Source: Acidobacteriaceae bacterium (lineage in GTDB: Bacteria; Acidobacteriota; Terriglobia; Terriglobales; Acidobacteriaceae). Taken from it: a DNA stretch of 64,000 nt. Position 1 is the first letter of the stretch; each line of letters opens with the position of its first letter. A program made the translations under genes and the position numbers. The DNA lies in NCBI GenBank assembly GCA_035944135.1, contig DASZBM010000006.1:1-64000 (forward strand), written 5' to 3'. The notes beneath the pieces are model-generated. The model saw nothing but the letters and a program-made list of their open reading frames with translations, did no database searches and was not told where the DNA came from. Of this stretch, positions 33,971-48,137 are shown in pieces.

Positions 33971-34052
33971 TAGCCCCAAACATCTAGCGGCTTTAGCTCC
34001 TGAGGTATGCTTTCGCTCAATCGGCTAGCACGCCTTTTGGGACGGCGACGAC

Positions 34053-34511
34053 ATGCAAAAAGATCTCCTGCTACTCATCCTCGAGCAGAACCGCTACACC
34101 AGCCACTTCTCATTCGACAAAGTCACAGCCGAAACCGCGCCACTCCGCCTCAACGAAAAGACCGCATCCATCGGCTTCATCTATCGCCACATAGGCGAAA
34201 CGATGAATCTCTTTGGCCAGTTCTTCGGCATCCCGACCGACGTGAAAAACAGCACCATGGGCCAAACCGACACCGGCCAACCCTTCGACGTCGACTACAG
34301 CCGCGAACTCATCTCACGTGGCTACGAAGCGCTAAAAACTCTCATCGAAAACAGCGCTGACGAAGATTGGCTCAAACCCATCGACACTCCCTTCTTCGGC
34401 ACAGTCCCGCGCATCAGGCTCTTCGCTCACGTTCTATTTCACAACTCACATCACGCCGGCCAGATATCCCTGACCTTGTCGAAAGGAAGCGTCTGGCCCC
34501 GCCACGACTAA
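34053..34511 (+). CDS. DinB-family protein
   Basis: A 152-residue four-helix-bundle protein of the DinB/YfiT superfamily. The three metal-binding His are visible: one in FIYRHIGETMN (about 47) and two in LFHNSHHAGQISL near residue 131-135. These proteins are metal-dependent thiol transferases or unknown hydrolases, induced by stress in some bacteria. No neighbour hints at a substrate. GACGGCGACGAC before the ATG is not a good ribosome site. Confidence 0.88.
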   Translation: MQKDLLLLILEQNRYTSHFSFDKVTAETAPLRLNEKTASIGFIYRHIGETMNLFGQFFGIPTDVKNSTMGQTDTGQPFDVDYSRELISRGYEALKTLIENSADEDWLKPIDTPFFGTVPRIRLFAHVLFHNSHHAGQISLTLSKGSVWPRHD

Positions 34512-34586
34512 ATCGGATCCGATGCGGCCGTCCATGCGTTTGCACGGATGCATGAGCCGATGATGTATGAGCCACCACAAGCCAAG

Positions 34587-34666
34587 TGCTGAAGGCGCGT
34601 CCCATACCAGCCCAGGGCGCAGCCATGGGTTTCTTGCACATAGAAAGCAGAGGGCTGAAGGCCCGA
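34587..34666. repeat. Possible interspersed element with two CTGAAGGC words and a hairpin
   Basis: Between the DinB and DoxX-like genes, GTGCTGAAGGCGCG (34587-34600) and GGGCTGAAGGCCCG (34653-34666) flank a hairpin with arms CCCAGGGC and GCCATGGG (34611-34629). Only one copy is present in the window, so calling it an interspersed element is tentative. Confidence 0.35.
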
Positions 34667-34667
34667 C

Positions 34668-35525
34668 CTATCGCTCCTCACCTGCAACTCCCCACCCCGC
34701 CAGCAACACCGTCGCCGCAAACAGCAACGTATCGCCGACATAGTTCAACCCCTCCACCGCTAGCTTCGTATGCATCTCGCCCAACAAAATCGGCACATAG
34801 AAGAACACCACCAGTAGCACCAGCACCGCGCCCGCAAACGCCGTCGCAACCCTCGCTGTCCGCCGCGCAAACATCCCCACTCCGCAAACGAGCAGCACCA
34901 ATCCCACAATCCACGCGATCGCCACCGCCCCTGGAATCCACCCCGGGGTCATCTTCTCCAGCGGCACGCCCGGCACATTGCGCGGATGCAAAAAGTGCTC
35001 GATCGCATAGAACACCATTACCACCCCGACGATCACCCGACCCACACGCACCAGCACGGCCCGGCCCCACACACTCCCCGCCAGCACCAGCGCTGCCGCG
35101 CCAAAGCACGTCTCCCGCACCGTCAGAATCCAGAAGAACCGGTCGTGCATCTCCTTCGACAGTCCCGGCAAATCAACCACCAGCACGATGATCCAGAAGA
35201 AAAGGACCAGCCCCACGCTTGACCACCGCACACCGCGCCACACCACCAAGCTGATCGCCGCCGCCGCCAGCGCCACGCCGAAGAAGTAAGTCCAGAACAG
35301 CGGCCCCGGCAGCCACTTCGGCACAATTCCCATCAACTCCCGCGATGCCGTAAAGTGCTCCGCGGCAAACATGCCAAGCGCGACAGCCTCAAACACCGGC
35401 CCCAGCACCAGAATCTTCCCCACGCCGGCAGCCGCCCGAAACCTTGCCCCCAGCAGCACGATGCCCACAATCAGCGCAGCCACGCCCGCCGCCATCATCG
35501 CCCAGACCTCTACAGACATACGCAT
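34668..35525 (-). CDS. Multi-spanning membrane protein, DoxX-like
   Basis: A 285-residue protein with seven to eight hydrophobic segments and few polar motifs. VGRVIVGVVMVFYAIEHFLHPRNVPGVPLEKMTPGWIP near the middle resembles the DoxX-like family pattern (G-x-x-F-x-x-x-G-x-x-H-F plus P-x-x-x-P). MFAAEHFTASRELMGIVPKWLPGP in the first half looks like a second copy of the same pattern, which suggests an internal duplication. The function is unknown. It ends beside the possible repeat element at 34587-34666. An AGGAG-like GGAGATGCG region covers the start. Confidence 0.8.
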   Translation of the reverse strand: MRMSVEVWAMMAAGVAALIVGIVLLGARFRAAAGVGKILVLGPVFEAVALGMFAAEHFTASRELMGIVPKWLPGPLFWTYFFGVALAAAAISLVVWRGVRWSSVGLVLFFWIIVLVVDLPGLSKEMHDRFFWILTVRETCFGAAALVLAGSVWGRAVLVRVGRVIVGVVMVFYAIEHFLHPRNVPGVPLEKMTPGWIPGAVAIAWIVGLVLLVCGVGMFARRTARVATAFAGAVLVLLVVFFYVPILLGEMHTKLAVEGLNYVGDTLLFAATVLLAGWGVAGEER

Positions 35526-35739
35526 CTCCTCTGGTCGATGACAAAAAACAAACTTGTTTCAAAGGGAGCAACAGACTACCACTCAAAACCCTCTTCTTTG
35601 ACCACGCTCGCGATACACTTGCCCCGCTCACCGTTATGCGTCTCTTTCGCTCTCGCCGGACCTACCTCGCGTTCTTCGCCCTTTTCGCCTACACCGCTTG
35701 GCGCAGCGCTTTCCCGCGCCACCATCAACCATCCATTGA

Positions 35740-36057
35740 ATGGCATCCAGTCTTCTTTGGCATCGAGTTCGCGGTGACCATGCGTTCGCCATCTGCCTCG
35801 CTCTCGGCGCCGCTCAACTCACCTCCGTTCTCGTCGAGAGAGCGGCGCTTGCTCTGCTGGCGATCGGGTTCCTTCTATCCATGGTTGTCGATCTCCACTC
35901 AGCAAACCTGCTCCACGTGCCCGTACCTTCTTTTCGACTCGTCTTTCTAACACTGAACAATCTGGTGGCTCTGCTCCTCGCGATCCGATTCGTCCAGGTT
36001 CTTCGCGAACCACCTTTACGAGGCATCCTCAGCCGAACTCCCACTCCGAAACACTAA
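35740..36057 (+). CDS. Small membrane protein, possibly the 3' part of a frameshifted gene
   Basis: A 105-residue frame rich in hydrophobic helices (AICLALGAAQLTSVLVERAALALLAIGFLLSMVV, then FLTLNNLVALLLAIRFVQVL). The ATG directly follows a TGA in its own frame, and no ribosome site is seen. A second frame from an ATG at 35636 encodes a plausible beginning (LAFFALFAYTAWRSAF...HPVFFGIEFAV) that turns into low-quality sequence near 35770. Joining the two frames there would give one membrane protein of about 140 residues. Either the gene is broken, a base is wrong, or only one frame is real. The first units of the downstream heptamer patch overlap the stop. Confidence 0.4.
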   Translation: MASSLLWHRVRGDHAFAICLALGAAQLTSVLVERAALALLAIGFLLSMVVDLHSANLLHVPVPSFRLVFLTLNNLVALLLAIRFVQVLREPPLRGILSRTPTPKH

Positions 36058-36080
36058 CGACGAACCACTAACCACTCGCA
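36053..36080. repeat. Heptamer repeat patch before the NtrY-like gene
   Basis: Four 7-base units: ACTAACG, ACGAACC, ACTAACC, ACTCGCA. The word is the reverse complement (circularly permuted) of the GTGGTTA units at 27955. Confidence 0.75.
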
Positions 36081-36101
36081 TCAACGAGTAAACTTCCCCC
36101 C

Positions 36102-38459
36102 ATGGGCACATCCAACAGCCGCCGCAACCTCCTCATCGGTCTCGGCGTGTGCCTCATACTCTTCATCGTCCTTGCGACGCTCAACGCCTTCAACGTCAGC
36201 TTCCTCAACCCAGCCTCTCCGCTCCAGACGCTGGTCTTCATCACCCTCTCGACGCTCGCCTTTGTCCTCTTCGTCGTTGTCCTCGTCCTCCTCGTCCGCA
36301 ATTTCCTGCGCCTCTACGCCGACCAGCGCAGCCGCATCCTCGGCACCCGTCTCCGCACCCGCATGCTCTGGGGAGCCGTCCTCGTCTCCCTCGTCCCGCT
36401 CGGCTTCATGTTCGCCTTCAGCTATCTGCTGATGAACCGCGCCGTCGACCGCTGGTTCTCTCAGCCCGTCACCCAGATGCGCGACGACGCCAATCGCGCC
36501 ACCCTCGAGCTCTTCCGCTACGCCGCCGCCAACGCCCGCTCCGAAGCCGACTCCATCGCTGTCGAACTCAACAGCCTTAACCTGAGCGCGCACCCCGACA
36601 CCGCCGCCATCAACCGCGTCCTCGACCGCCACTCCCTCACGCTGCAGGGCGGCTTCGCCATCGTCTACAACGACCGCCGTCCCATCGCCACCATCCATGT
36701 CCCCGTCAGCTCCGGCCCCGCCGAGCTCCGCTCCCTCCTGCCGCCCGACATCGCCTCCGCCTCCGACGAGAGCCCGCAACCGACAGAACCGATCCAGCGC
36801 ACCCCCGTCCACGGCCCGCTGCCCTCAGTCGTCCTTCAAGCCGCCCAGCAGACCGACCAGCCCTTCTACTCCATCGGCTCCACGGACTACTCACTCGCCT
36901 CCGCCGGCCTTCAGCACGGCGGGCTCGTCGTCGTCGCGCTTCCCATCCCCGCCGGCATCTCGGAAACCGCCGCACAGCTCCGCTCCGCCGCTGACACCTA
37001 CTGGACACTCTTCCGCGAACGCCGCCAGGTCCGCGCGCTCTACATGCTCTACCTGCTGTTGATGACCGGCCTCGCTCTCTTCGCCTGCTGCTGGCTCGCG
37101 CTCAACCTTTCCAAGCAGGTCACGCGCCCCATCGAAACTCTTGCCGACGCAATGGAAGCCATCGCTGCCGGCGACTACGCCCGCCGCGTCTCGCCCTCCG
37201 CCACCGAGGAGCTCGGTGAACTCACCGCCAGCTTCAACGCCATGGCCACCGACCTCGAATCCTCACGCGCCCTCGCCGAGCAGTCCCGCGCCCAGCTCTC
37301 CGAACTCAACGCCGCTCTTCAGCAGCGCCGCGCCGAGCTCGAAACCATCATCGAAACCATCCCGAATGGCGTCGTCACCCTCTCGCCCACCCTCCGCATC
37401 GTCCTCGCCAACCGAGCCTTCTCCGAACTCCTCGACCCCGGTGGCCAGAAACACTTCATCGGCTCGCGCCTCCACGAGGTCTTCCCCGCCGAGATCACCG
37501 ACACCCTCGACCGCCTTCTCCGCCGCTCGCATCGCATGGGCACAGCGTCCGACGAGGTCCAGATGTCCTCACCCTCCGGCCCGCTGCAAATCTCCGCCAC
37601 CGTCGCGCTCCTCGAAGGCACCACAACGGATGTCCATGAACACCTCGGTTACGTGCTCGTCCTCGAAGACGTCTCCGAGCTCCTCCGCGCACAAAAGCAA
37701 TCCGCCTGGAAAGAGGTCGCCCGCCGCGTCGCCCACGAGATCAAAAACCCCCTCACACCCATCTCCCTCAACGCCGAGCTCATCCAGCGCCACATCGGCC
37801 GCCTCAAGCCTCTGCTCACCGAACACAACGTCGAATCCAACTCCCCCGCCGTCATCGAACGCGCCACTGAGGTCATCTCATCGTCGGTCTCAACGATGAG
37901 ATCCTTGGTAGACCAGTTCGCTACCCTCGCCGAGTTCCCCACCTCGCGCCTTCGCCCCGCGGACATCAACGGGATCGTAGAAAACTCACTCGCGCTCTTC
38001 GCCGGCCGCCTCGGCAACATCCGCGTCCGCCGCGCCCTCGCGCCCAACCTCCCACTCGTCTCCGCCGACCCCGAAGCCCTCCGCCGCGCACTTTCCAACC
38101 TCATCGACAACGCCGCCGAAGCCATGCACGACTCCCTCCACCGCGAGCTCACCCTCTCCACTCGCCTGCTCCCCTCCGGTCTCATCGAGCTCTGCGTCGC
38201 CGACACCGGCCCCGGCCTCACGGACGAGCTCCGCGAGCGCCTCTTCCTCCCCTACTTCTCCACCAAGCAGCGCGGCACCGGCCTCGGCCTCTCCATCGCC
38301 GCCAAAATCATCCAGGAGCACCAAGGCACCATCCGCGCCGAAAAAAACGTCCCCGCCGGCGCCAAATTCATCATCGAACTCCGCCCCGCCACCACCTCAA
38401 CCACCGACTCCGACTCGGAAGCCACTACAATCCCAACAACCGAACGCACCCCCGCATGA
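36102..38459 (+). CDS. NtrY-like sensor histidine kinase
   Basis: A 785-residue membrane kinase. Two or three N-terminal membrane segments (about 10-30, 45-68 and 88-110) are followed by an extracytoplasmic region, another segment near 310-332 (ALYMLYLLLMTGLALFACCWLAL), a HAMP domain (about 333-390), a PAS-like domain (about 405-520), then HisKA with phospho-acceptor H545 in RRVAHEIKNPLTPISLNAE. The HATPase domain has SNLIDNAAEAM, ADTGPGL and GTGLGLSIAAKI. NtrY kinases respond to nitrogen or redox cues in proteobacteria, and the signal here is unknown. It is followed by its cognate response regulator after a 48-base gap that contains a heptamer repeat. Confidence 0.92.
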   Translation: MGTSNSRRNLLIGLGVCLILFIVLATLNAFNVSFLNPASPLQTLVFITLSTLAFVLFVVVLVLLVRNFLRLYADQRSRILGTRLRTRMLWGAVLVSLVPLGFMFAFSYLLMNRAVDRWFSQPVTQMRDDANRATLELFRYAAANARSEADSIAVELNSLNLSAHPDTAAINRVLDRHSLTLQGGFAIVYNDRRPIATIHVPVSSGPAELRSLLPPDIASASDESPQPTEPIQRTPVHGPLPSVVLQAAQQTDQPFYSIGSTDYSLASAGLQHGGLVVVALPIPAGISETAAQLRSAADTYWTLFRERRQVRALYMLYLLLMTGLALFACCWLALNLSKQVTRPIETLADAMEAIAAGDYARRVSPSATEELGELTASFNAMATDLESSRALAEQSRAQLSELNAALQQRRAELETIIETIPNGVVTLSPTLRIVLANRAFSELLDPGGQKHFIGSRLHEVFPAEITDTLDRLLRRSHRMGTASDEVQMSSPSGPLQISATVALLEGTTTDVHEHLGYVLVLEDVSELLRAQKQSAWKEVARRVAHEIKNPLTPISLNAELIQRHIGRLKPLLTEHNVESNSPAVIERATEVISSSVSTMRSLVDQFATLAEFPTSRLRPADINGIVENSLALFAGRLGNIRVRRALAPNLPLVSADPEALRRALSNLIDNAAEAMHDSLHRELTLSTRLLPSGLIELCVADTGPGLTDELRERLFLPYFSTKQRGTGLGLSIAAKIIQEHQGTIRAEKNVPAGAKFIIELRPATTSTTDSDSEATTIPTTERTPA

Positions 38460-38467
38460 CCCTTAAC

Positions 38468-38495
38468 CCCTAACTCCTCACCCCTAACCCCTCAC
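38468..38495. repeat. 14-bp direct repeat (CCCTAAC type) between kinase and regulator genes
   Basis: CCCTAACTCCTCAC (38468-38481) is followed at once by CCCTAACCCCTCAC (38482-38495), 13 of 14 identical. A further partial unit CCTTAAC precedes it. Confidence 0.85.
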
Positions 38496-38507
38496 TCGTC
38501 TCCCCCT

Positions 38508-39941
38508 ATGCCCCACGTCCTCATCGTCGACGACGAAGCCGACATCCGCGAATCCCTCGAGGCCATCCTCCGCGAAGAGGACTACGCCATCACATCCGCC
38601 GGCACGCTCGCCGAAGCCCGCACCATCCTCCGCGACGCCGACTTCCAGGCCGTGCTCCTCGACATCTGGCTCCCCGACGGCGATGGCCTCGACCTCCTCG
38701 CTCAAATTCACAACAACCAGCTCCGCGGCACCACGGACGGCCCGCGCCCACCCGCGCCCGAAGTCATCATGATCTCCGGCCACGGCACCATCGAGTCGGC
38801 CGTCCGCGCCACCAAGCTCGGCGCCTACGACTTCCTCGAAAAGCCCCTCTCGCTCGACCGCACCCTCCTCGTCCTCCGCAACGCCATCAACGCCCACAAA
38901 CTCCGCCTCGAAAACCAGGAGTTCTCCACCCAGCTCACCGCGCGCGCCTCCATCACCGGCGATTCCATCTCCATCAAGGCCCTCCGCCAGCAGATCAAGC
39001 TCATGGCCCCCACTAACGGCCGCGTGCTCGTCATCGGCGAATCCGGCACCGGCAAAGAGCTCATCGCCCGCACCATCCATGCCGAATCCCTCCGCCGCGA
39101 CCGCGTCTTCGTCGAGCTCAACTGCGCCGCCATCCCCGAAGACTTCATCGAGACCGAGCTCTTCGGCTACCGCCACGGCGCCGGCCCCCAGGCCTCGCAG
39201 TCGCCCGACCGCCCCACCGAAAAGCGCGGCACCTTCGAGCGCGCCGACTCCGGCACTCTCTTCCTCGACGAAGTCGGCGACATGAGCCTCAAAACCCAGG
39301 CCAAAGTTCTCCGCGCCTTAGACGAGCAGCGCTTCTATCCCGTCGGCGCGAGCACCCCAACGCACGTCGACGTCCGCGTCATCGCCGCCACCAACAAAGA
39401 TCTCGAAGAAGAGATCGCCCGCGGCAACTTCCGCGAAGACCTCTTCTACCGCCTCAACGTCATCCCCTTCTACGTCCCGCCACTGCGCGACCGCAAAGAA
39501 GACATCCCCTCGCTCGCCCGCGAGTTCCTCGCCGAGCTCGGCCAGGAGTACGGCCGCGCCCGCGTCGAAATCTCCGACACCGCCATCAATCAGCTCAAGG
39601 CCTACCACTGGCCCGGCAACGTCCGCGAGCTCCGCAACGTCATCGAGCGCGTCCTCATCCTCAACCCCAAGGCCCAGCGCATCGAAGCCAAACACCTCCC
39701 CATGCTCGTCCAGCGCACCGACGGCGCCTCGCTCACCAACCCCTCGACATCCACCACCCGCACCGGCCGCGAAGAGTTCAGCACTCTGCAAGCCGCCCGC
39801 GAAGCCTACGAGCGTGACTACATCTTGAAAGAACTCGACCGCAGCCACGGCAATATCTCCCGCGCCGCCGAATCCCTCGGCCTCGAACGCTCCCACCTCT
39901 ACCGCAAAATGAAAACCCTCGGCATCCAGTTAGGCGAGTAA
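38508..39941 (+). CDS. NtrX/NtrC-type response regulator lacking the GAFTGA loop
   Basis: A 477-residue regulator: receiver domain 1-125 with phospho-acceptor D52 (LLDIWLPDGDG), AAA+ domain about 145-385 with Walker A GESGTGKE, Walker B GTLFLDEVGD and arginine-finger segment FREDLFYRLNVIP, and a Fis-type helix-turn-helix at the C-terminus (GNISRAAESLGLERSHLYRKMK). Where sigma-54 activators have G-A-F-T-G-A, this protein reads GYRHGAGPQASQSPDRPTEKRGTFE (from G220; the stretch continues to about 243). Without the sigma-54 contact loop it may act with the housekeeping sigma factor, as reported for GAFTGA-less NtrC of Rhodobacter. Paired with the kinase gene upstream. Confidence 0.92.
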   Translation: MPHVLIVDDEADIRESLEAILREEDYAITSAGTLAEARTILRDADFQAVLLDIWLPDGDGLDLLAQIHNNQLRGTTDGPRPPAPEVIMISGHGTIESAVRATKLGAYDFLEKPLSLDRTLLVLRNAINAHKLRLENQEFSTQLTARASITGDSISIKALRQQIKLMAPTNGRVLVIGESGTGKELIARTIHAESLRRDRVFVELNCAAIPEDFIETELFGYRHGAGPQASQSPDRPTEKRGTFERADSGTLFLDEVGDMSLKTQAKVLRALDEQRFYPVGASTPTHVDVRVIAATNKDLEEEIARGNFREDLFYRLNVIPFYVPPLRDRKEDIPSLAREFLAELGQEYGRARVEISDTAINQLKAYHWPGNVRELRNVIERVLILNPKAQRIEAKHLPMLVQRTDGASLTNPSTSTTRTGREEFSTLQAAREAYERDYILKELDRSHGNISRAAESLGLERSHLYRKMKTLGIQLGE

Positions 39942-40035
39942 AGCCGACGCACCGTAGGAATGCAAGATAGCTCGCGCTTCAGGTTCGCGGCATAGCGCGT
40001 GTCGATCCGCACGGCACCGATTGCCCTCCGCTACT

Positions 40036-40266
40036 TCAGCCCGGGTCACTCGTGCTTTCGCCGCTGGCGGAGAGAAGCAGTTCATTCTCGGTGGGCCGAT
40101 ATCCGCAATCTTCGCAGTCGAAGAAGTTATCGTCATATTCGTTGGTCCGTTCGTCCGCCAGTTCAAGCTGCCCCTCGTCATTGACTACCGGCCTTCGAAG
40201 GACGTATGCATCGGTATAGTGCAGGAGAGAATCGCTTCCACAACGCGGACACGGAACTTCCTTCAT
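40036..40266 (-). CDS. Small zinc-ribbon protein
   Basis: A 76-residue acidic protein with two CxxC pairs, CPRCG near residue 6-10 and DCEDCGY near residue 51-57, forming one zinc ribbon. YTDAYVLRRPVVNDEGQLELADERTNEYDD lies between them. No function is known to me. The ATG at 40266 with AGGTG six bases upstream is chosen. The longer frame runs through the intergenic gap and into the gene upstream. It follows the DpnI-like gene by 37 bases on the same strand and may be co-transcribed. Confidence 0.7.
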   Translation of the reverse strand: MKEVPCPRCGSDSLLHYTDAYVLRRPVVNDEGQLELADERTNEYDDNFFDCEDCGYRPTENELLLSASGESTSDPG

Positions 40267-40303
40267 CGCGGCACCTGATCGGGCATATTGTTGAGTGAGT
40301 GAT

Positions 40304-41071
40304 TCAGAGCAGCAACCGGTAAGTTCCCGCCCCACAGAATTCCAGATATCCCAAGTCGCGCAGAACCTGCAATTGCTGTCTGACCTTAGCGCGTATATTT
40401 CGGTTATCAGGGTACACCGAAGAGAAAAGGTGTTCTCTGTTGTAAATTTCAGCAAGAGAGAACTCCGACGTGTGTAACCCACGCAGCACGGAGAGAGTTA
40501 GCGCCGTCCAGCCACGCCGCTCAATTGGAACCTCTCGCAGTCGATTGAACCTTCGAAATTGCTCGCGAACGGATTCGCGGGGACGCGAAACGCCATCCTT
40601 GATTATCTCAATTGCCGCGTCGTTTCCCATCAGATCGAGCCGTATGTTGCATCCGACCCATCCTGCGCGACGCGCGGTCGAAGACAACGGCTTGCGTTTC
40701 TCCACTATGTCGGGAGTGAGAAACATCGGATGTATTGCGGTAAGTCCGGAGATACTCCAGCCGGAACTGCGCTCGATGAGCATGAGCGTGGGCGCGGCTC
40801 CGCATTGGAGACGCGAAATGAGCGCGCCATAAGCTCCGTCGATAAGCCTTTTCGCGGGCTTCCTCCGAAAGGCCTTTAGCTCATAGCTGCCGCTACAACT
40901 TCGGCACACGAAGTCACAAGCTTTTGTGTTGTTGGCCGTCGGCTCGAGCGCCTCGCAATCGCAAGCCAGACAAAACCCATTTCGTCGAAACCAAGCCTCC
41001 GACAGAATACGGGATATTTGAAGTGGGCTGGTATATCCGATGGCCGCGGAGAGGTCACAATTCAGTTCCAT
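40304..41071 (-). CDS. DpnI-like methyl-directed restriction endonuclease (G6mATC)
   Basis: A 255-residue protein that matches Streptococcus DpnI along its whole length, including numbering of key residues. These are the PD-(D/E)xK active site D53, E64, K66 (in ACDFVCRSCSGSYELKA), the structural zinc site C34, C37, C56, C59, the RRAGWVGCNI segment, and a C-terminal winged helix (GWTALTLSVL ... RQQLQVLRDLGYLEF). DpnI cuts GATC only when the adenine is methylated. No DNA methyltransferase is encoded nearby, and none would be needed. The start overlaps the upstream ORF by 10 bases and lacks a ribosome site, suggesting coupling. Base composition looks AT-richer than its neighbours, a sign of transfer. 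Confidence 0.93.
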   Translation of the reverse strand: MELNCDLSAAIGYTSPLQISRILSEAWFRRNGFCLACDCEALEPTANNTKACDFVCRSCSGSYELKAFRRKPAKRLIDGAYGALISRLQCGAAPTLMLIERSSGWSISGLTAIHPMFLTPDIVEKRKPLSSTARRAGWVGCNIRLDLMGNDAAIEIIKDGVSRPRESVREQFRRFNRLREVPIERRGWTALTLSVLRGLHTSEFSLAEIYNREHLFSSVYPDNRNIRAKVRQQLQVLRDLGYLEFCGAGTYRLLL

Positions 41072-41307
41072 GGGGCTGTCCGTGCCAATTTATTCTGTTT
41101 TGCGATATCGCCGCGATTTCCACCTGCAACCAACCAACGGGACGGATCAAGGCTGAATGAACCCAAGACAGAAACGATATCGGCCCATTCAGCCGGACAT
41201 ACAGAACGAAGCACTGCAGCGGCAGAACTGGTTTCAAGAAATGCCCAGCGTGCTCGAATCGCAGGATCAAGCACTAGAGGATCATCATATGTGGCTGTTT
41301 CAAACAT
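41062..41307 (-). CDS. Short ORF resembling the N-terminus of a BglII-family endonuclease (truncated)
   Basis: An 81-residue frame ending in FSLDPSRWLVAGGNRGDIAK followed by a short tail and a stop inside the start of the DpnI-like gene. The W-x-x-I-x-x-V-L-x-x-F...[PA]GGN[KR]-x-x-I-[AS]-K pattern is what I recall from the N-terminal part of BglII/BstYI-like type II enzymes, which should continue for well over 100 residues more. The catalytic part is missing, so this is a remnant, a fusion scar, or a separate small partner. The identification is tentative. No ribosome site is seen before the ATG at 41307. Confidence 0.45.
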   Translation of the reverse strand: MFETATYDDPLVLDPAIRARWAFLETSSAAAVLRSVCPAEWADIVSVLGSFSLDPSRWLVAGGNRGDIAKQNKLARTAPWN

Positions 41308-41681
41308 GGCCGTAGTCTAAATGCGCCCAAAGCGGGGGCTGTGTACTCCGGACACACACCCGATGCGAAAATTCTCACATGCGCATCGACCTCAAATCTG
41401 CGCTCTCGTCTCTGCCTCTACCCCCAACCACCCACCTGGCCTGAGGGCGTCTGGAAAGACCACCTTCCTTCTCCCACGACACCATGCCCGTCCTCATCTC
41501 CACACCGCGAAAACCCTCAGCATTCACCCCGGCGAGTAGCCCACAAGACTCATCGCGTAATAGATACGTAATTCCCGACCGAATCCGCATCGAAAGCAGG
41601 ACTTTGTCCGCCACAAAGCGTCTAATCTATAGATACGGGCAGCTCTCGGATAATTCGTCTGCGACCTCGTGGAGGTGTCAG
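41308..41681. other. Intergenic region between the DpnI-like island and the response regulator gene
   Basis: About 374 bases with divergent genes at its ends. Apart from one possible promoter at 41604-41633 I see no gene, repeat or strong hairpin. Several short open frames here have no coding character. Confidence 0.5.
41604..41633 (+). promoter_or_regulatory. Possible sigma-70 promoter for the response regulator gene
   Basis: TTGTCC (41604-41609, counting TTGTCC from t41604) and TATAGA (41628-41633) are separated by 18 bases, 49 bases before the ATG at 41682. The -10 lies in the palindrome ATCTATAGAT. Prediction by eye only. Confidence 0.3.
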
Positions 41682-42512
41682 ATGGCGCTCGCTCGTGTGT
41701 TGGTGGTTGACGATAATGAAGCAGTCCGTGTCAGTCTTTGCGCCATTCTTGAAAAGCATGACTTTGAGGCCACCTCTGCAGCCGACGTCAGCGCAGCGCT
41801 AAAGTTCATCAGTTCCGAGAAATACGATGTCCTCTTGACTGATCTACACATGCCTGGCGCCGGGGACGGACTTACCGTCGTGAGTGCCATGCGTCACGCG
41901 AACCCCGAAGCTGTGACCTTGCTCTTGAGTTCATTTCCCGAAATGTCCGCGGCCGCCAACGCGATCTTGATGCAAACCGACGAGATCCTCGTCAAACCAA
42001 TGAATATCCCCGACCTCATCGAGGCGATCACGCAACGGCTCGCCAAGGGGCCGCTCCATAAGCGCAAGGTCGAAACGCTGGCCACAATTCTCGAACGTAC
42101 CACCGAGGCGGGAATAGCTGATTGGTATGAACTGGTAGAGAAAGAGGACACCTTGATGGCGATTCCTCTCAGCCGGGCGGCGCGCTGCCAGCACCTGCCC
42201 CAGCTCTTCAGCGATCTCGGAAAGCGCCTGCGAGCCCTCAAGCCGCTCGGCACCAAAGAACTGAAGTCCGAAGCGGCCTCGAATCATGGGACTGCGCGGC
42301 GCAAACAGGGTTACACCGCCGCGATGATGGTGGAAGAAAGCCGCATTCTCCAGGTCACCATCTTCCATACACTTCAGAAAAACCTGGGCACGATCGACTT
42401 CAGCGTCCTGCTTCTCGGCGTCATGACGATTGCCGATGAGGTGGATTCGCAGTTGAGTCAATCGATGAAAAGCTACCTCGCGGAGTCCATTCAAGATGCA
42501 CTGCCTGCGTAA
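41682..42512 (+). CDS. Response regulator with RsbRD-like output region
   Basis: A 276-residue protein. Receiver domain 1-125: ARVLVVDDNEAVR with the acidic pair, phospho-acceptor Asp in VLLTDLHMPGAGDG and Lys in ILVKPMN. From about 140 a helical region (ILERTTEAGIADWYELVEKED...LSRAARCQHLPQLFSDLGKRLR...HGTARRKQGY) resembles the RsbRD N-terminal-like domain often seen in acidobacterial receiver proteins. No DNA-binding domain is visible, so a protein-protein output is inferred. The start is the ATG at 41682 with GGAGG just upstream. No kinase gene is adjacent. Confidence 0.85.
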   Translation: MALARVLVVDDNEAVRVSLCAILEKHDFEATSAADVSAALKFISSEKYDVLLTDLHMPGAGDGLTVVSAMRHANPEAVTLLLSSFPEMSAAANAILMQTDEILVKPMNIPDLIEAITQRLAKGPLHKRKVETLATILERTTEAGIADWYELVEKEDTLMAIPLSRAARCQHLPQLFSDLGKRLRALKPLGTKELKSEAASNHGTARRKQGYTAAMMVEESRILQVTIFHTLQKNLGTIDFSVLLLGVMTIADEVDSQLSQSMKSYLAESIQDALPA

Positions 42513-42693
42513 GCGCCGGGCACCCTAAGTCTCCAAAGAGACGTGAGTTCGCAGTACGCAATTCCCGTGGCCACAAGCACGATCCGCCTCGCAAAACTGT
42601 TCTTAATTGACCACTCAAGGATTACAGAAGTACGACGAACGCGAATGCTTCTTCAGTGATCGAATAAGTACGGCGATAAGGAGCCCAGTACGT

Positions 42694-43623
42694 ATGGCCA
42701 CCGTAGTTCCAGCTCTCGAAACACTTCAGGTCTCAACCATTACCAACGAGTCCATACGTCCCGCAGGCCACAAATCAACTGTCCCGCCGCCAGCCATGCT
42801 CCTCGGCCGAACCTCACAGCGTCGATCACTCAACTGGCTGGTCTTTCTCTTCATGCTGCTCTTCCACATCGGAGCCATCGCAGCCTTCTTCTTCTTCAGC
42901 TGGTCCGCTCTTACCATCGCCATCGTCTTCTACGTCCTTGCCATCAACGTCGGCATCGGCATGGGCTATCATCGCCTGCTCACCCATCGCGGTTACAAAG
43001 TCCCCAGGTGGATCGAGTACACGATGGCCGTCTGCGCGACCCTCAGCCTCGAAGGCGGACCGCTGATCTGGGTTGCTACCCATCGCGTCCATCATCAGAA
43101 CACCGATGTCCTTGGCGACCCCCACTCTCCGCACGAAGGCGGCTGGTGGTCCCACGCCGGTTGGATCATCTATGGTGCCGGCGCGGCCGGTGAGCCCGCG
43201 ATCCTCGCCAAGTACGCTCCCGACATCGCCAAAGACCGTTTCTACGTCTGGCTGACTCGCTTCCACTGGGTTCCGCTCGTCGCTCTCGCGCTGATTCTCC
43301 TCGCGGTCGGCGGTTGGCCATGGGTCCTCTGGGGCATCTTCCTCCGCGTCACCGTCGGTCTGCACGCCACCTGGCTCGTTAACTCCGCCACGCACATGTG
43401 GGGATCAAAGCGCTTCCCCACCAAAGACGACTCCCGCAACAACTGGTGGGTCGCCCTCCTCACCGGAGGCGAAGGCTGGCACAACAACCACCACGCGCAT
43501 CCCGTCTCCGCCCGCCACGGCCTCGCCTGGTACGAGTTCGACGTCAACTACTACGGCATCTGGCTGCTCGAAAAGATCGGCCTCGCCCGCAAGGTCCACG
43601 TCGAGCACCTCGAGCACGACTAA
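42694..43623 (+). CDS. Acyl-CoA/fatty-acid delta-9 desaturase
   Basis: A 309-residue membrane di-iron enzyme introducing a double bond into fatty acyl chains. All three His boxes are present: HRLLTH (about 94), HRVHHQ (about 132) and HNNHH (about 270), with GGEGWHNNHHAHPVSARHG around the last. Four hydrophobic segments fit the family fold. The ATG at 42694 behind AAGGAG is preferred to the longer upstream frame. It stands alone between the response regulator gene and the convergent TonB gene. A role in membrane-fluidity adjustment is inferred. Confidence 0.93.
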   Translation: MATVVPALETLQVSTITNESIRPAGHKSTVPPPAMLLGRTSQRRSLNWLVFLFMLLFHIGAIAAFFFFSWSALTIAIVFYVLAINVGIGMGYHRLLTHRGYKVPRWIEYTMAVCATLSLEGGPLIWVATHRVHHQNTDVLGDPHSPHEGGWWSHAGWIIYGAGAAGEPAILAKYAPDIAKDRFYVWLTRFHWVPLVALALILLAVGGWPWVLWGIFLRVTVGLHATWLVNSATHMWGSKRFPTKDDSRNNWWVALLTGGEGWHNNHHAHPVSARHGLAWYEFDVNYYGIWLLEKIGLARKVHVEHLEHD

Positions 43624-43749
43624 AATCTTCGCCGGCCGCCCGGATCAATGACGACCCCGCAGCACGGTCCGAACGCCAGTCCGCCAACTTGACAAAGCCC
43701 TCCCCCAACACCCCCTGTGCGCGAGCGGGAACGTCTGCGTCGGCACATC

Positions 43750-43813
43750 AGGTCCAAGCCTAAATTCTTTCGATTGAAGATTTTGCGCAAAAACAGGGGG
43801 GGAGGGGGGTACC
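43750..43813. repeat. TTTTGCGCAAAA plus G-tract element, copy A
   Basis: The order AGGTCCA, CTAAATTC, AGATTTTGCGCAAAAA, long G-tract interrupted by one A, then GTACC matches 63142-63210. The palindrome TTTTGCGCAAAA is at 43781-43792 and the G-tract at 43796-43809. A degenerate relative is at 48321. Confidence 0.8.
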
Positions 43814-43820
43814 CCCTGTT
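43789..43820 (-). terminator. Terminator of the TonB gene, built from the G-tract element
   Basis: On the minus strand AACAGGGGG (43820-43812) pairs with CCCCCTGTT (43800-43792), followed by TTTTT (43793-43789). The 5' arm overlaps the last bases of the gene's stop codon region, so the stem begins at the stop. Confidence 0.65.
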
Positions 43821-45183
43821 ACTTGGCGAACTTGAAATCCAGGATCGCCGTCGTCGTCACCGCGATCGGCTTGCCATTGTCGAGCAGAGGGCTATATCGC
43901 CAGCGCTGCACCGCCTGTTGCGCTGCGTCCCGCAGCAGAGGCGGCCCACTCACCGCACGTGCATAGATCACGTTGCCATCAGGGTCCACAACCGCGTGCA
44001 CCGTCACCTGACCATGGACGCGAGCCGCTGCCGCATCAGCGGGATACTCCGGCGCCGGGCTGAAGATCACACTCGCAGGCGTGATCCCCGCCGCTCCCTG
44101 CGGCACAATGGACCGCGTCTTCGCGCTGGATTGCGTGACGTCCTGTTGCCCTCCGGAGTCCGGTGCCCCCTTCGACGAAGCCGTAACCACCTGCTTCACC
44201 ACGGTCATCGGCACTGCAGAACCCTGTGCCCCCCGCGCTACAGACCCGACCTGAACAGCCGCCGGCTGAACCGCTGCCTGATCGCCCTGCGTTACAGGGG
44301 CCGTCTGCGCTGCTCCGGAACCCGCTTCACTGTCCAGCCGCTCTGGCGGCTCCATCGGCGCAATCGAGCGAACCATCTTCGGTTTGTTCGGAGAACTCGA
44401 GGCACGCACCGCCACATGCATCTCCGCTGCAGAAACAACACGGTGGAACATCAGACCCAGGCCCACCCCCACCAGCATGCACACCACCCCAACAATCCAG
44501 ACCGCGTGATTCCTCCACCACGAAGCTTCCGGCTCCTGCTGCGCAGCAAACAACCCACCCGTACGGAATGGCGAAAGCACCACATCCTCTGCTTCACGGC
44601 CGTCGGCCTCAACGACAGCGACCGGAGGCTCGTCCGGCTTCAGTTCAAGTTTCTTCGAGTTCGAAAATGGCGCGGACTCGACCCCCCTCGCCAGCAGTAC
44701 CGGCTCGGAGATTGCCGGCGCCGCCTCTCGACGCTCAGCTTCAACCGCGCCTGTCGTCTCCTCTAATTCTGACTCCGGCTGGAACGTCGAACGGCGTGAC
44801 TGCAGGAGAAAGCGCAGCATCTCGCGGACGTCTGCCTCCTGCGAATCGCTCTTCAGATCATGCCCGCTCCCTGCAGCGGCAGTCACCAGAATGCCAAGCA
44901 GGTCCTCATAGCCGATCCCCTCGCGCTCCTCATACAGGATGGCGCGCATTAGCGATGCGACATCCGCGCGGAAGCGAACATCCGTTTCGAGACGCTTCGA
45001 CAGCTGCGGAATCGCTTCCGGCGAGTCGACCGGCAGCTTTTCCTTCAGCAGGAAGCCCCGTATCTCCTGCACGTGGCCTGAGAAGCGGCTCGAAATTTCC
45101 GTAAGCTGAGAAGCCAGAAACACCCGGGTTCGACCTTCTAATTCTCCGCCGCCGACGCGACGGCCTAAGATCCCCTGTCGCAC
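43819..45183 (-). CDS. TonB-family energy transducer with a large cytoplasmic N-terminal domain
   Basis: A 454-residue protein. About 225 residues precede a single membrane segment (NHAVWIVGVVCMLVGVGLGLMF). A variable Pro/Ala/Gln-rich periplasmic linker follows, then a C-terminal TonB domain (ASVIFSPAPEYPADAAAARVHGQVTVHAVVDPDGNVIYARAVSG...AVQRWRYSPLLDNGKPI). Ordinary TonB has only a short cytoplasmic start. Here the extra part is helical, with ISSRFSGHVQEIRGFLLKEKLP and MRAILYEEREGIGYEDLLGIL. No ExbB/ExbD genes are nearby. The start is taken as the GTG at 45183, but a downstream start cannot be excluded. Confidence 0.85.
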   Translation of the reverse strand: MRQGILGRRVGGGELEGRTRVFLASQLTEISSRFSGHVQEIRGFLLKEKLPVDSPEAIPQLSKRLETDVRFRADVASLMRAILYEEREGIGYEDLLGILVTAAAGSGHDLKSDSQEADVREMLRFLLQSRRSTFQPESELEETTGAVEAERREAAPAISEPVLLARGVESAPFSNSKKLELKPDEPPVAVVEADGREAEDVVLSPFRTGGLFAAQQEPEASWWRNHAVWIVGVVCMLVGVGLGLMFHRVVSAAEMHVAVRASSSPNKPKMVRSIAPMEPPERLDSEAGSGAAQTAPVTQGDQAAVQPAAVQVGSVARGAQGSAVPMTVVKQVVTASSKGAPDSGGQQDVTQSSAKTRSIVPQGAAGITPASVIFSPAPEYPADAAAARVHGQVTVHAVVDPDGNVIYARAVSGPPLLRDAAQQAVQRWRYSPLLDNGKPIAVTTTAILDFKFAK

Positions 45184-45311
45184 AGCGGGGCTATGACATT
45201 AAGACGGTATGAGCGGCCCGATGTTACCCCGCTATGACCTCCGGTTGTGCGCCGCGACGAAGGATCAACAACTTGCAGTCGACTCAAAAAACATTTTCCG
45301 AGCAGCCCACG

Positions 45312-48137
45312 TCATTTGCCCGCCACACTGCAGTGAAGATCCTGAAGCATCTCTGGTTCATATTTGCTCGGTTGATGGCTTTTCCACTGCGTCACAATAT
45401 CTTCGCGTTGCGTGCGGAGCAGATGCCAGGAAAGCGGCGCTCTGTCATCCGCCGAATAATGGAAGTACACCGGCTTAATCTTGTCCTGAATCTCCGGATT
45501 AAATCCCAGGTCATCCATAGTCGCATGCAGCTCGATGTCCGCCCTCGTCTCCTGTGAGCTCGTCCGCACCGCCAGCAACGTTCCTACCGGCGCAACAATC
45601 TGCCGTTGCCAACTCCACACGCCGCCAGCGCTCTTCTCTGAGGACATCGCGTCGATAATCACCAGATATACCGGATGACCTTTCAGCTTAGGGCCCGCCC
45701 CCATCAGCCACTGCAGCGCGCTCAATAGCCCGGAGTTGTCGTAGTATCCGCCGTCACCCAGATGCAGTTGCGCGTATTTCAGATCCGTGTCCGGGCGGCT
45801 CATCGGTGAAACGAATGGAAACGTCGCGGAGACCCTCGCCGCCGTGCTCACATCCATGTCCTCTTTGGTGAACGTGGGAAAGAACTGCAATGCGGCTGGG
45901 CGGCCTTCCGCCGGCTGCTCGTACAACCCCGTGGTGGCGGCCATGAATCGATTTCCGGTCTCGGAAATCGTCGCGTTGAAAATGACCGCGGGCCGCGTGC
46001 CTCTTCCAACGTCATCGTTCCATTCACTCAACTGCGGAGGCGCGGCATGAGACTTCCAATGCGTTACCCATTCCCGCTCCAGAGCCGAACCGCGATCGAA
46101 ATTTTGCGGCACCAAAAAGTTCACACCCGGAACCGTCCTGAGCAGGTCCGGATAGACAAGCCCCCAACCAACTGCGCCCAGATCCGTCCTCGCCGATTCA
46201 TCGAAGATCGTTCCGCTCTGCTTCGGATCCGTGTTGCCGTTGCCGTCATACCATCCGGCAAAATACATCGCGCCCTCACTGCCGCCGGAAACTGAGCTAA
46301 TCAGCACGACTGACGACGTGAACGCATTCTGTGTCCCATCGGCAGACTCGCAGTCATCCGCGAGCCCCGTAAGCACCTCCGTCGTCCATGCCGAGGCGCG
46401 AATTCCTCCTCCCGCCGTCGCAACCACCACGATCGGCGCTTGCTCGCGCTTCCGGAAGTTCGCCCATGCATCGATCACATGCGATGGATCCTGCACGGAC
46501 ACCACCGACTGCAGCGGATGCAATTCGAACACATGATCCGTTCGCCAACCGGCAGCCAGCACCATCGATATTCCAAGCACCGCCGTCAGCACTGGCACGC
46601 GCAGCTTGTCCAGAAAGAACGCCACGCCGGAGAAGAACCACGTCAGCAGACAAAGCAGCAGCAGGACGTAGAACATCGCTGCCGGGTTGCTGATCCTGCT
46701 GCTCGGCGAAGTGAAATAGCCGACTACGGCATAGATCAACAGCGTGGCGATCAGCGCAATCGTTCCAACCCGATGCCCCGATCGCAGCACGAGCTCCGTC
46801 TTTCCGCCAACAATTTGTTGCCGGATATACCCCGCGTCGAGATTGCCCGGTAAGACCCTGTCCATCGCTTCCGCAGTCCCGGTAGAAAGCGCATTCGGCG
46901 GTGCACCATGCGCATTGAGTCCGCGGAACGGCGGATAGATAAAGCAGACCGTATTCGATCCTGCGGTCTCCTCCAGCCACGCGTGGAACTGCGCCGTCGC
47001 ATACAGAAACGCGAGCGCAGCCAATGCTGCCAGAACAACGCCCGCAACCCTCAACCATGCGGAGAAAGGGTCGGAAAGGCTTCCCCGCCATGTCATCACC
47101 ACCATGGGCACAGCCAGCAGCGAAAACAGAATCGTCGGCCACCATGAACTGCGCACCCAAGGCCGCGTGTCACTCACATCATCAAACCGGTCCGGTGCGT
47201 ATGCCAGCGTGATGCGCGCGGTGATCATGATGATGATCGCCAGAAGAAATGCGGCGAAGCAGATCAGAAAGAACGAAAACGGCACCATCGCATCGAACAG
47301 TCCATAGAAGATCGAAGGCGCATAGAAGTAGCCCGCCGGAAGCACCACGGCGAGCAGCAACCCATTGATGATCGGAAATCGAAGCAGGTATGCGTAGATG
47401 AGAAACGTTGCGACCACTTTTCCCTTGGGGCGCCTCCAGGGAAAGTAGCTCACCAGTGCAATCGGCATCGCGATAAAGAGTCCGATCGGAATTGGATTTT
47501 TGCATGCCAGAGTTCCGACCAGCGTCAAGAGACCTGACACCGCCAGCAATCCGCCAATTACCTTGCGAAGACGCAGCTTCTCGGCAACGAAACAATGAAT
47601 GCCCAACGCCGTCGTCGCGGCCCCGAAGACGCACCACTTCACGGTCGATACCACTCCGGAAGTCACAAAATTCAGATTGCCCTCTTTGATTTGACAGAAG
47701 CCGGCCAGCATCAACTGGTTTTCACGAAGATCCAGGCCGGCTGCCACCGTGATCAAAATCGCGACCGCGGCTCCGAGCCACCTTGTCCGTGGATCGGTCT
47801 TCCCCAGCACCCAAGCAAACGCCAGGAACGTCAGCCAGTAGAGCGTGATGAACGCATAATCTTCATGAGTATTCCGAACCGCGAGCCTGAGGTTCTCAGG
47901 GCCGTCGGCCGTCGCGTCCGGTGAAGTGCTCTTCATCGGGCCGATCAGGCTCGCAAAGCACGCCGAAGTTTTGCTTAACTCGATCTGCGCGATCGGCGGC
48001 GTTTTCTTGTTCGCGCAATCGGGCGGAAGCTCCGTGCCAAAGCGGCTCGGCTGCTTCACATATCCCGCCATCTCCACTTGCATGATGGCGCCCCAAACCA
48101 CTGTCGCGAGAAGCAGGAACCAAAAGATCTTTTGCAT
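45312..48137 (-). CDS. Large membrane protein with C-terminal patatin-like phospholipase domain
   Basis: A 941-residue protein. The first 540 or so residues hold about ten to twelve hydrophobic segments, and the remainder is a patatin/cPLA2-like hydrolase domain. It has the oxyanion-hole G576-G-G-I-R580, nucleophile S617 in ISSVSGGSEGA and catalytic D795 in LGDGGYYDNSGL. The elbow lacks the Gly two residues before the Ser (SVSGG instead of GxSxG). Phospholipase or acyl hydrolase activity at the inner membrane is inferred. GGAGG nine bases before the ATG at 48137 supports the start. No partner is evident in the neighbourhood. Confidence 0.85.
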   Translation of the reverse strand: MQKIFWFLLLATVVWGAIMQVEMAGYVKQPSRFGTELPPDCANKKTPPIAQIELSKTSACFASLIGPMKSTSPDATADGPENLRLAVRNTHEDYAFITLYWLTFLAFAWVLGKTDPRTRWLGAAVAILITVAAGLDLRENQLMLAGFCQIKEGNLNFVTSGVVSTVKWCVFGAATTALGIHCFVAEKLRLRKVIGGLLAVSGLLTLVGTLACKNPIPIGLFIAMPIALVSYFPWRRPKGKVVATFLIYAYLLRFPIINGLLLAVVLPAGYFYAPSIFYGLFDAMVPFSFFLICFAAFLLAIIIMITARITLAYAPDRFDDVSDTRPWVRSSWWPTILFSLLAVPMVVMTWRGSLSDPFSAWLRVAGVVLAALAALAFLYATAQFHAWLEETAGSNTVCFIYPPFRGLNAHGAPPNALSTGTAEAMDRVLPGNLDAGYIRQQIVGGKTELVLRSGHRVGTIALIATLLIYAVVGYFTSPSSRISNPAAMFYVLLLLCLLTWFFSGVAFFLDKLRVPVLTAVLGISMVLAAGWRTDHVFELHPLQSVVSVQDPSHVIDAWANFRKREQAPIVVVATAGGGIRASAWTTEVLTGLADDCESADGTQNAFTSSVVLISSVSGGSEGAMYFAGWYDGNGNTDPKQSGTIFDESARTDLGAVGWGLVYPDLLRTVPGVNFLVPQNFDRGSALEREWVTHWKSHAAPPQLSEWNDDVGRGTRPAVIFNATISETGNRFMAATTGLYEQPAEGRPAALQFFPTFTKEDMDVSTAARVSATFPFVSPMSRPDTDLKYAQLHLGDGGYYDNSGLLSALQWLMGAGPKLKGHPVYLVIIDAMSSEKSAGGVWSWQRQIVAPVGTLLAVRTSSQETRADIELHATMDDLGFNPEIQDKIKPVYFHYSADDRAPLSWHLLRTQREDIVTQWKSHQPSKYEPEMLQDLHCSVAGK

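Follow-up and report, generated by a model that had tools for sequence, protein, structure and literature searches.

The closest described counterparts of the locus reported here come from Streptococcus, Neisseria and Pectobacterium. In Streptococcus pneumoniae, one locus can be occupied by the DpnI, the DpnII or the DpnIII cassette (accessible part of PMC12707154). In Neisseria, the DpnI-family gene drg (NmeBII) is inserted at a GATC methyltransferase locus, which it inactivates (available excerpts of PMC516771 and PMC4269198), and dam and drg were found to be mutually exclusive in 84 of 84 meningococci (PMC516771, same excerpt). In Pectobacterium, the modification enzyme of the PcaRCI/PcaRCII pair sets the very mark that a methylation-dependent endonuclease of that cell targets (PMC8989522, text accessible in part). 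Within the literature covered by our search, outside of which lay most subscription journals, the replacement of dam is in print only for Neisseria, and no paper on a pairing of MT-A70 methyltransferases with BglII-type nucleases was found. Here we analyse a 64,000-nucleotide stretch of an Acidobacteriaceae genome (contig DASZBM010000006.1, positions 1 to 64,000; hereafter the window), in which a DpnI gene probably took over a GATC-type restriction-modification (RM) operon, comparable to the replacement of dam by drg in Neisseria.

The DpnI gene of the window (Table 1) is an intact frame with an ATG start, and its product combines a PD-(D/E)XK catalytic domain, including a zinc site, with a C-terminal winged helix. 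An earlier note, made from the letters of the DNA, had described it as a chromosomal DpnI homologue matching DpnI end to end and predicted to cleave G6mATC, and domains, residues and fold all support this description. Both Pfam domains are found (DpnI, PF06044, E 7.6e-47, profile positions 1-182 of 183; DpnI_C, PF17726, E 1.8e-21), phmmer aligns residues 1-253 with PDB 4esj (DpnI) in a single ungapped stretch (E 6.5e-49), and PADLOC assigns the protein to its class mREase_II (E 1.9e-58). The active-site residues D53, E64 and K66 and the zinc cysteines C34, C37, C56 and C59 are all present, at the very numbers given before. The methyl-binding cleft likewise keeps L129, R135, W138 and G140, and the winged helix keeps K229/R231 (roles according to the accessible part of PMC4117772). 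The AlphaFold model has a pLDDT of 94.6, and Foldseek returned only three matches with E below 0.001, namely 4kyw (E 4.4e-26, but with an rmsd of 8.0 and a TM of 0.65) and two chains of 4esj (TM 0.80-0.83). As far as the sequence tells, this is an intact DpnI, which, judged by its fold and residues, would most likely cut fully methylated G6mATC. The AT-richer pocket in which the gene had been placed is confirmed by a GC content of 0.54-0.56 over 40001-43000, compared with mostly 0.58-0.65 in the rest of the window, and GATC sites show a mild deficit (385 observed vs 474 expected).

By itself the DpnI gene is ordinary, one of many. A search with an alignment including more distant members yielded at least 572 relatives, the best 80 of which come from many phyla, and a scan of the genome-contig collection with the window protein alone gave no match. 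Within the order, 45 of 397 sampled genomes contain a DpnI match, and the genome studied here is the sole member of its genus among them; given this patchy distribution the gene was probably acquired, in agreement with the earlier note. A phage or plasmid home is unsupported: the viral and the phage collection contributed one partial match each, and the plasmid collection six records, four of them partial (26% of the query) and two chromosome-like Neisseria records of 2.17 Mb. The NtrC-type gene upstream has a match in all 28 genomes of the genus, paralogues included, and blastn of 20 stretches downstream of it found none resembling window 40000-46000. Since no clean empty site is thus available at this place, the comparison was made with the operon of a congener (genome G087, locus L167) located elsewhere.

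This comparison reveals what lies under DpnI. The 81-aa ORF next to it consists of the N-terminal stump (71 residues) of a BglII/BstYI-type enzyme followed by 10 unrelated residues, with a 10-bp overlap between its TGA stop and the DpnI start (ATGGAACTGA). On the stump alone, the BglII profile PF09195 scores E 2.5e-4 and 21.3 bits, under the cut-off of 26; in the scan with the R profile of this study the match spans positions 8-67 of 203, and the catalytic half is missing. The intact enzyme of the congener is 93% identical over 74 codons, three of which precede the start. By its sequence, then, the stump is a remnant rather than a member of the BglII family, recognised through its intact congener. 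At the DNA level, the relic comprises the 5' part of the restriction (R) gene and 40 bp upstream of its start, and a comparison of the junction sequences places the end of congener homology at 41094, 22 bp ahead of the DpnI start. With the overlapping stump and the loss of homology at 41094, DpnI is located in, and truncates, an RM gene in the manner of drg. The earlier note had held that DpnI stands without a methyltransferase and had taken this as suggestive of acquired defence; its first part stands, as profiles for MT-A70, BglII, Dam and DpnA-like genes run over 34000-48000 found the R stump and no methyltransferase, and what it missed is the underlying RM-operon stump, along with a zinc-ribbon ORF. 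On its other side, 37 bp downstream and on the same strand, DpnI is accompanied by a small zinc-ribbon ORF (start picked by homology), and zinc-ribbon genes of two types occur beside DpnI in 18 of the 41 order loci described below. A conserved small ORF of ~80 aa (MNKIFVTVSGG... type) adjoins DpnI in four of these 41 loci (L031, L059, L061, L062); a Pfam scan of one such ORF gave no match.

Table 1. Coordinates of features in the window and in compared loci (R, restriction gene; M, methyltransferase gene).
Feature	Location	Strand	Evidence or remark
DpnI-type methyl-directed restriction endonuclease, 255 aa	window 40304..41071	-	PF06044, PF17726, 4esj, AlphaFold, Foldseek
81-aa ORF, putative BglII/BstYI-type restriction endonuclease stump	window 41062..41307	-	PF09195 below cut-off; congener identity
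254-bp relic, probably of an older restriction-modification operon	window 41094..41347	.	89% identity to L167 5480-5732
Small zinc-ribbon ORF, 76 aa	window 40036..40266	-	homologues beside DpnI in L052, weaker in L051
941-aa protein	window 45312-48137		patatin-like match below threshold (PF01734, E 9e-6, 26.5 vs 27.7 bits)
Intact congener R gene, 235 aa (G087)	L167 4986-5693		95 bits to PF09195
RM operon (G415)	L274 719-1740		R split over two frames, M cut short, no DpnI nearby
Intact Dam-family methyltransferase with cut-off DpnI (order)	L058 5915-7831		DpnI ends at about residue 140
PF01555 methyltransferase beside 374-aa ORF (own genome)	L172 362-2385

In the congener, the intact BglII-type gene stands beside a gene for an MT-A70 methyltransferase at L167 4258-4989. 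Among 20 PF09195 loci of the order read with their flanks (mostly better matches, and hence biased to intact genes), 13 have full-length BglII-type and full-length MT-A70 genes side by side, and seven are without an MT-A70 match; the MT-A70 and BglII profiles were built from the 13 paired loci. The methyltransferase matches solved MT-A70/METTL3 enzymes, its solved relatives being mostly of the METTL3-METTL14 type, and three of the pieces are recognised by Pfam MT-A70. The best PDB match of the R profile is BstYI (E 6e-4). BstYI recognises RGATCY, and the methyltransferases of the BglII and BstYI systems are N4-cytosine enzymes. We read the pair as a putative type II RM operon. Its two genes are arranged in no fewer than three ways, with M preceding R, R preceding M, or both convergent. 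In genus g142, from another part of the phylum, 12 of 13 genomes (L255-L262, L264-L267) have the MT-A70 gene without a BglII-type gene in its 1.5-kb flanks, L254 being the only one with such a gene there; the MT-A70 genes of those 12 are possibly solitary methylases.

Debris of this operon recurs beside DpnI within the order. The 41 DpnI loci read with flanks comprise 40 fetched loci and the window (G195, G233, G306 and G345 were left out), and the profile scan detected operon pieces in nine of them: R alone in the window, L052 and L031, M alone in L059, L056 and L032, and both genes in L050, L034 and L064. All pieces are partial, with their nearest edge at most 515 bp from DpnI and none elsewhere in the flanks; 32 of the 41 loci lack such a remnant, and the same scan of 20 control loci gave no match. 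The MT-A70, BglII, Dam, DpnA-like and zinc-ribbon profiles were built from loci later scanned with them, and the Pfam scan of neighbours covered 145 of 208 ORFs and the first 25 of 111 families. A single three-gene system of BglII-type enzyme, MT-A70 and DpnI was considered and dropped, as every DpnI-adjacent MT-A70 or BglII gene in the order is truncated. Two comparisons within genera keep both flanks: between L161 and L050, 557 bp across the M-R junction correspond to 1154 bp with DpnI and a zinc ribbon, and between L168 and L064, 637 bp correspond to 1167 bp. Beyond the operon itself, the compared loci have hardly any flanking sequence in common, or none.

The relationships among these loci point to more than one event. 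The window and its sister locus L052 contain stumps of different R alleles, each nearest to the intact gene of its own genus, and the orientation of the stump relative to DpnI differs between the two, which points to separate events. On a DpnI protein tree of 99 rows, three of them partial, the label of an MT-A70/BglII remnant (the nine loci and L193, see below) requires eight gains or losses, a count that does not separate the two and may consist of losses; L065 and the loci with truncated DpnI (L058, L060, L061, L062) were left out of this tree. The junctions are also alike. The 10-bp overlap of stop and start recurs in L064, the truncated methyltransferase ORF of L050 ends 10 bp before the DpnI start as listed, and such ORFs close 0-19 bp ahead of DpnI in L227, L242, L244, L245 and L250, loci of other groups. 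Over seven loci, the truncated genes end from 10 bp inside to 19 bp before DpnI, so the start signals of the stump may serve DpnI. The mirror case is L058 (Table 1), which would be the reverse outcome of the conflict between DpnI and methyltransferase.

A search of the 397 order genomes with the MT-A70 protein of the congener (E up to 1e-10) found the gene in 31. In 25 of them it is whole, defined as a match that spans the conserved core, 175 or more of the 243 residues (in G239 and G009 a stop is flagged inside the match, yet the core lies in one open frame), and none of these 25 is among the 45 genomes with DpnI. In the other six (G148, G281, G291, G313, G335 and G375) the gene is truncated, and all six have DpnI, adjoining the truncated piece. 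Truncation is associated with the presence of DpnI (Fisher 1.4e-6). Taken on its own, the non-overlap of whole MT-A70 and DpnI is marginal (0 genomes against 2.8 expected, p 0.045). In 381 further genomes of the phylum, 21 possess the methyltransferase (that of G658 only 42% identical), one of them truncated and without DpnI (G415), and there is no overlap with the 11 DpnI genomes of this sample, in which both are too few to inform. Combined, truncated genes occur six times with and once without DpnI, and whole genes never with and 45 times without it (p 3.4e-7). For the nuclease, PF09195 matches reaching 155 of 163 positions, a limit set after seeing the matches, number 0 of 5 next to DpnI vs 28 of 37 elsewhere (p 0.0024). 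All these p-values are optimistic because the genomes are related and many are MAGs.

Outside the order, the same arrangement involves other methyltransferases. Removal of 17 Acidobacteriales records as duplicates of the order set (L175 among them may not be one) reduced the 80 best relatives to 63 named DpnI loci, which with few exceptions belong to other groups (L225 among them is probably the order genome G195). In ten of the 63, a broken gene for an adenine methyltransferase lies no more than 1 kb from DpnI. Dam and DpnA-like enzymes are families known for GATC. Dam-family pieces are found in L227 and L245 (mild truncation, the last 15 and 10 positions of TIGR00571, respectively, being unmatched), L249 (a piece of 37 positions) and L221, and in L244 a Dam N-terminal piece lies upstream of DpnI and a DpnA-like C-terminal piece downstream. 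DpnA-like debris occurs in L250 (C-terminal part lost, with a Sau3AI/MutH-like nuclease beyond DpnI), L242, L232 and L231 (at 988 bp, lacking the N-terminal part), and L193, a Chloroflexota MAG, contains an MT-A70 remnant; a piece at a contig end (L222) stands outside this count. These loci also supplied the sequences for the local Dam and DpnA-like profiles; the Pfam and NCBIfam checks are independent of them. In two of the 63 loci, L233 and L234, an intact-looking DpnA-like gene (enzymes 55% and 56% identical to that of L250) lies beside an intact DpnI; these stand as counter-examples to strict incompatibility, unless the methylases are silent or act at a different site. Scanning the surroundings of DpnI in 104 loci for a motif of 5mC methyltransferases gave no match, and a broader motif matched just once, in a spurious-looking way, in the remainder of the 1.8 Mb, leaving no usable control.

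The genome of the window itself contains no gene of the Dam family (D12, PF02086), a search suggested by the earlier note and with a control positive in 4 of 14 genomes. A search for the MT-A70 family likewise found none there, which is weak evidence as the control was silent everywhere, and the MT-A70 protein of the congener (E up to 1e-10), which matched in 31 relatives, has no match in this genome at a sensitivity that smaller pieces would escape. Two PF01555 methyltransferases are present, 21-29% identical to the DpnA-like ones. That the strain "cannot carry Dam-type methylation", as had been stated, therefore agrees with the absence of a D12 gene and is to be taken as a prediction, given these two methyltransferases. 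The 374-aa ORF beside the second PF01555 gene (Table 1) gave no match in a Pfam scan and is perhaps an undescribed restriction partner.

The sequence of events that would account best for these observations begins with a resident BglII/BstYI-type RM operon with an MT-A70-family methyltransferase, which the ancestor of the window DpnI would have taken over, with loss of the methyltransferase and of everything in the R enzyme after residue 71. Following the R-gene stump and overlapping its stop, DpnI may use the expression signals of the old operon. The likely reason for the pattern would be a conflict over the target: presumably no cell can contain a G6mATC methyltransferase and DpnI both in active form. 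By this incompatibility, loss of the methyltransferase would be a condition for DpnI to establish itself, and a landing inside the RM operon would bring the gain of DpnI and the loss of the methyltransferase at once. If DpnI displaced the MT-A70 operon for this reason, the MT-A70 enzyme should methylate the inner A of a GATC-containing site; from the takeover pattern we consider it rather likely, with somewhat less confidence than the takeover itself, that the MT-A70 methyltransferase of these bacteria does so. A broader generalisation, which we regard as nearly evenly balanced, is that DpnI spreads by seizing operons that make its own target mark. On that generalisation, broken Dam, DpnA-like and MT-A70 genes in several phyla, often with DpnI as the next cistron, would be wrecks whose identity reveals the specificity of the lost methyltransferase, and G6mATC would be the mark of the MT-A70 branch (METTL3 relatives) working with BglII/BstYI-type nucleases.

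RM operons could also be favoured landing places, i.e. a defence hot spot, into which DpnI came by chance or recombination, and the debris would then be silent on the target of the methyltransferase. Operons of this type do decay without DpnI, since that of G415 is broken and 9 of the 37 R matches away from DpnI are partial. The near lack of common flanking sequence indicates that they are mobile, and L039 and L046 have two short pieces of another amino-methyltransferase adjoining DpnI. Against such indifference to the target speak the remaining assignable methyltransferase debris, which is Dam or DpnA-like (in L250 with a Sau3AI/MutH-like neighbour), and the strict partition in the order, where 25 of 25 whole MT-A70 genes are in DpnI-free genomes and 6 of 6 truncated ones touch DpnI; we regard a mere hot spot as unlikely.

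Plain acquired defence against Dam-methylated phage or plasmid DNA, with the R stump as a passive passenger on the same piece of DNA, would agree with the patchy occurrence in order and genus, the AT-richer pocket and the intact catalytic and methyl-pocket residues. It leaves unexplained both the closeness of the stump to the congener gene (89% at the DNA level) and the recurrent replacement of MT-A70/BglII operons across several genera, and as the whole explanation it appears quite improbable; it is compatible with an operon takeover, as selection for defence may keep DpnI in place. Least probable of all, and hardly to be expected, is that stump and DpnI form one unit, in which DpnI is under the control of the 81-residue peptide or of its translation, or that the locus is a dying, inactive relic. 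A unit would fit the 10-bp overlap in the window and L064 and the truncated ORFs closing before DpnI elsewhere, but the catalytic half of the enzyme is absent from the stump; a relic is at odds with an intact DpnI frame and a conserved active site, which are unlike decay. Takeover of a GATC-type operon by DpnI thus remains our preferred reading. What matters on that reading is the wreck under DpnI more than the DpnI homologue, one of many. The wreck suggests that dam replacement may be a general, repeated entry route of methyl-directed nucleases into methylated genomes. Close relatives keep both states of the switch, and from the pattern follows a prediction, cheap to test, of which DNA site bacterial MT-A70 methyltransferases modify.

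Compared with the known systems, the window protein resembles R.DpnI of Streptococcus pneumoniae in its full-length homology, its catalytic, zinc and methyl-pocket residues and its fold, at about one third identity (35% in the Foldseek alignment to 4kyw). Unlike in the DpnI cassette, its partner is a zinc ribbon, and the stump of the displaced MT-A70/BglII-type operon is still in place. With the BglII/BstYI family (PF09195), which the congener R gene matches, the window shares only the 71 residues it keeps, and the neighbour of these nucleases in the relatives is an MT-A70 enzyme. The conflict of mark and nuclease in PcaRCI/PcaRCII is, according to the accessible text, solved by silencing of the endonuclease, whereas in the window it would have been solved by loss of the methyltransferase. 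A further analogue is drg, likewise a DpnI-family gene at a broken methyltransferase or RM locus. However, drg displaces dam, whose specificity is known, while the window DpnI would have displaced an operon with a methyltransferase of another family, in another phylum and, with its relatives, in several genera; the repeated takeover of the MT-A70/BglII-type operon, and the prediction for its methyltransferase that results, is the part that is new.
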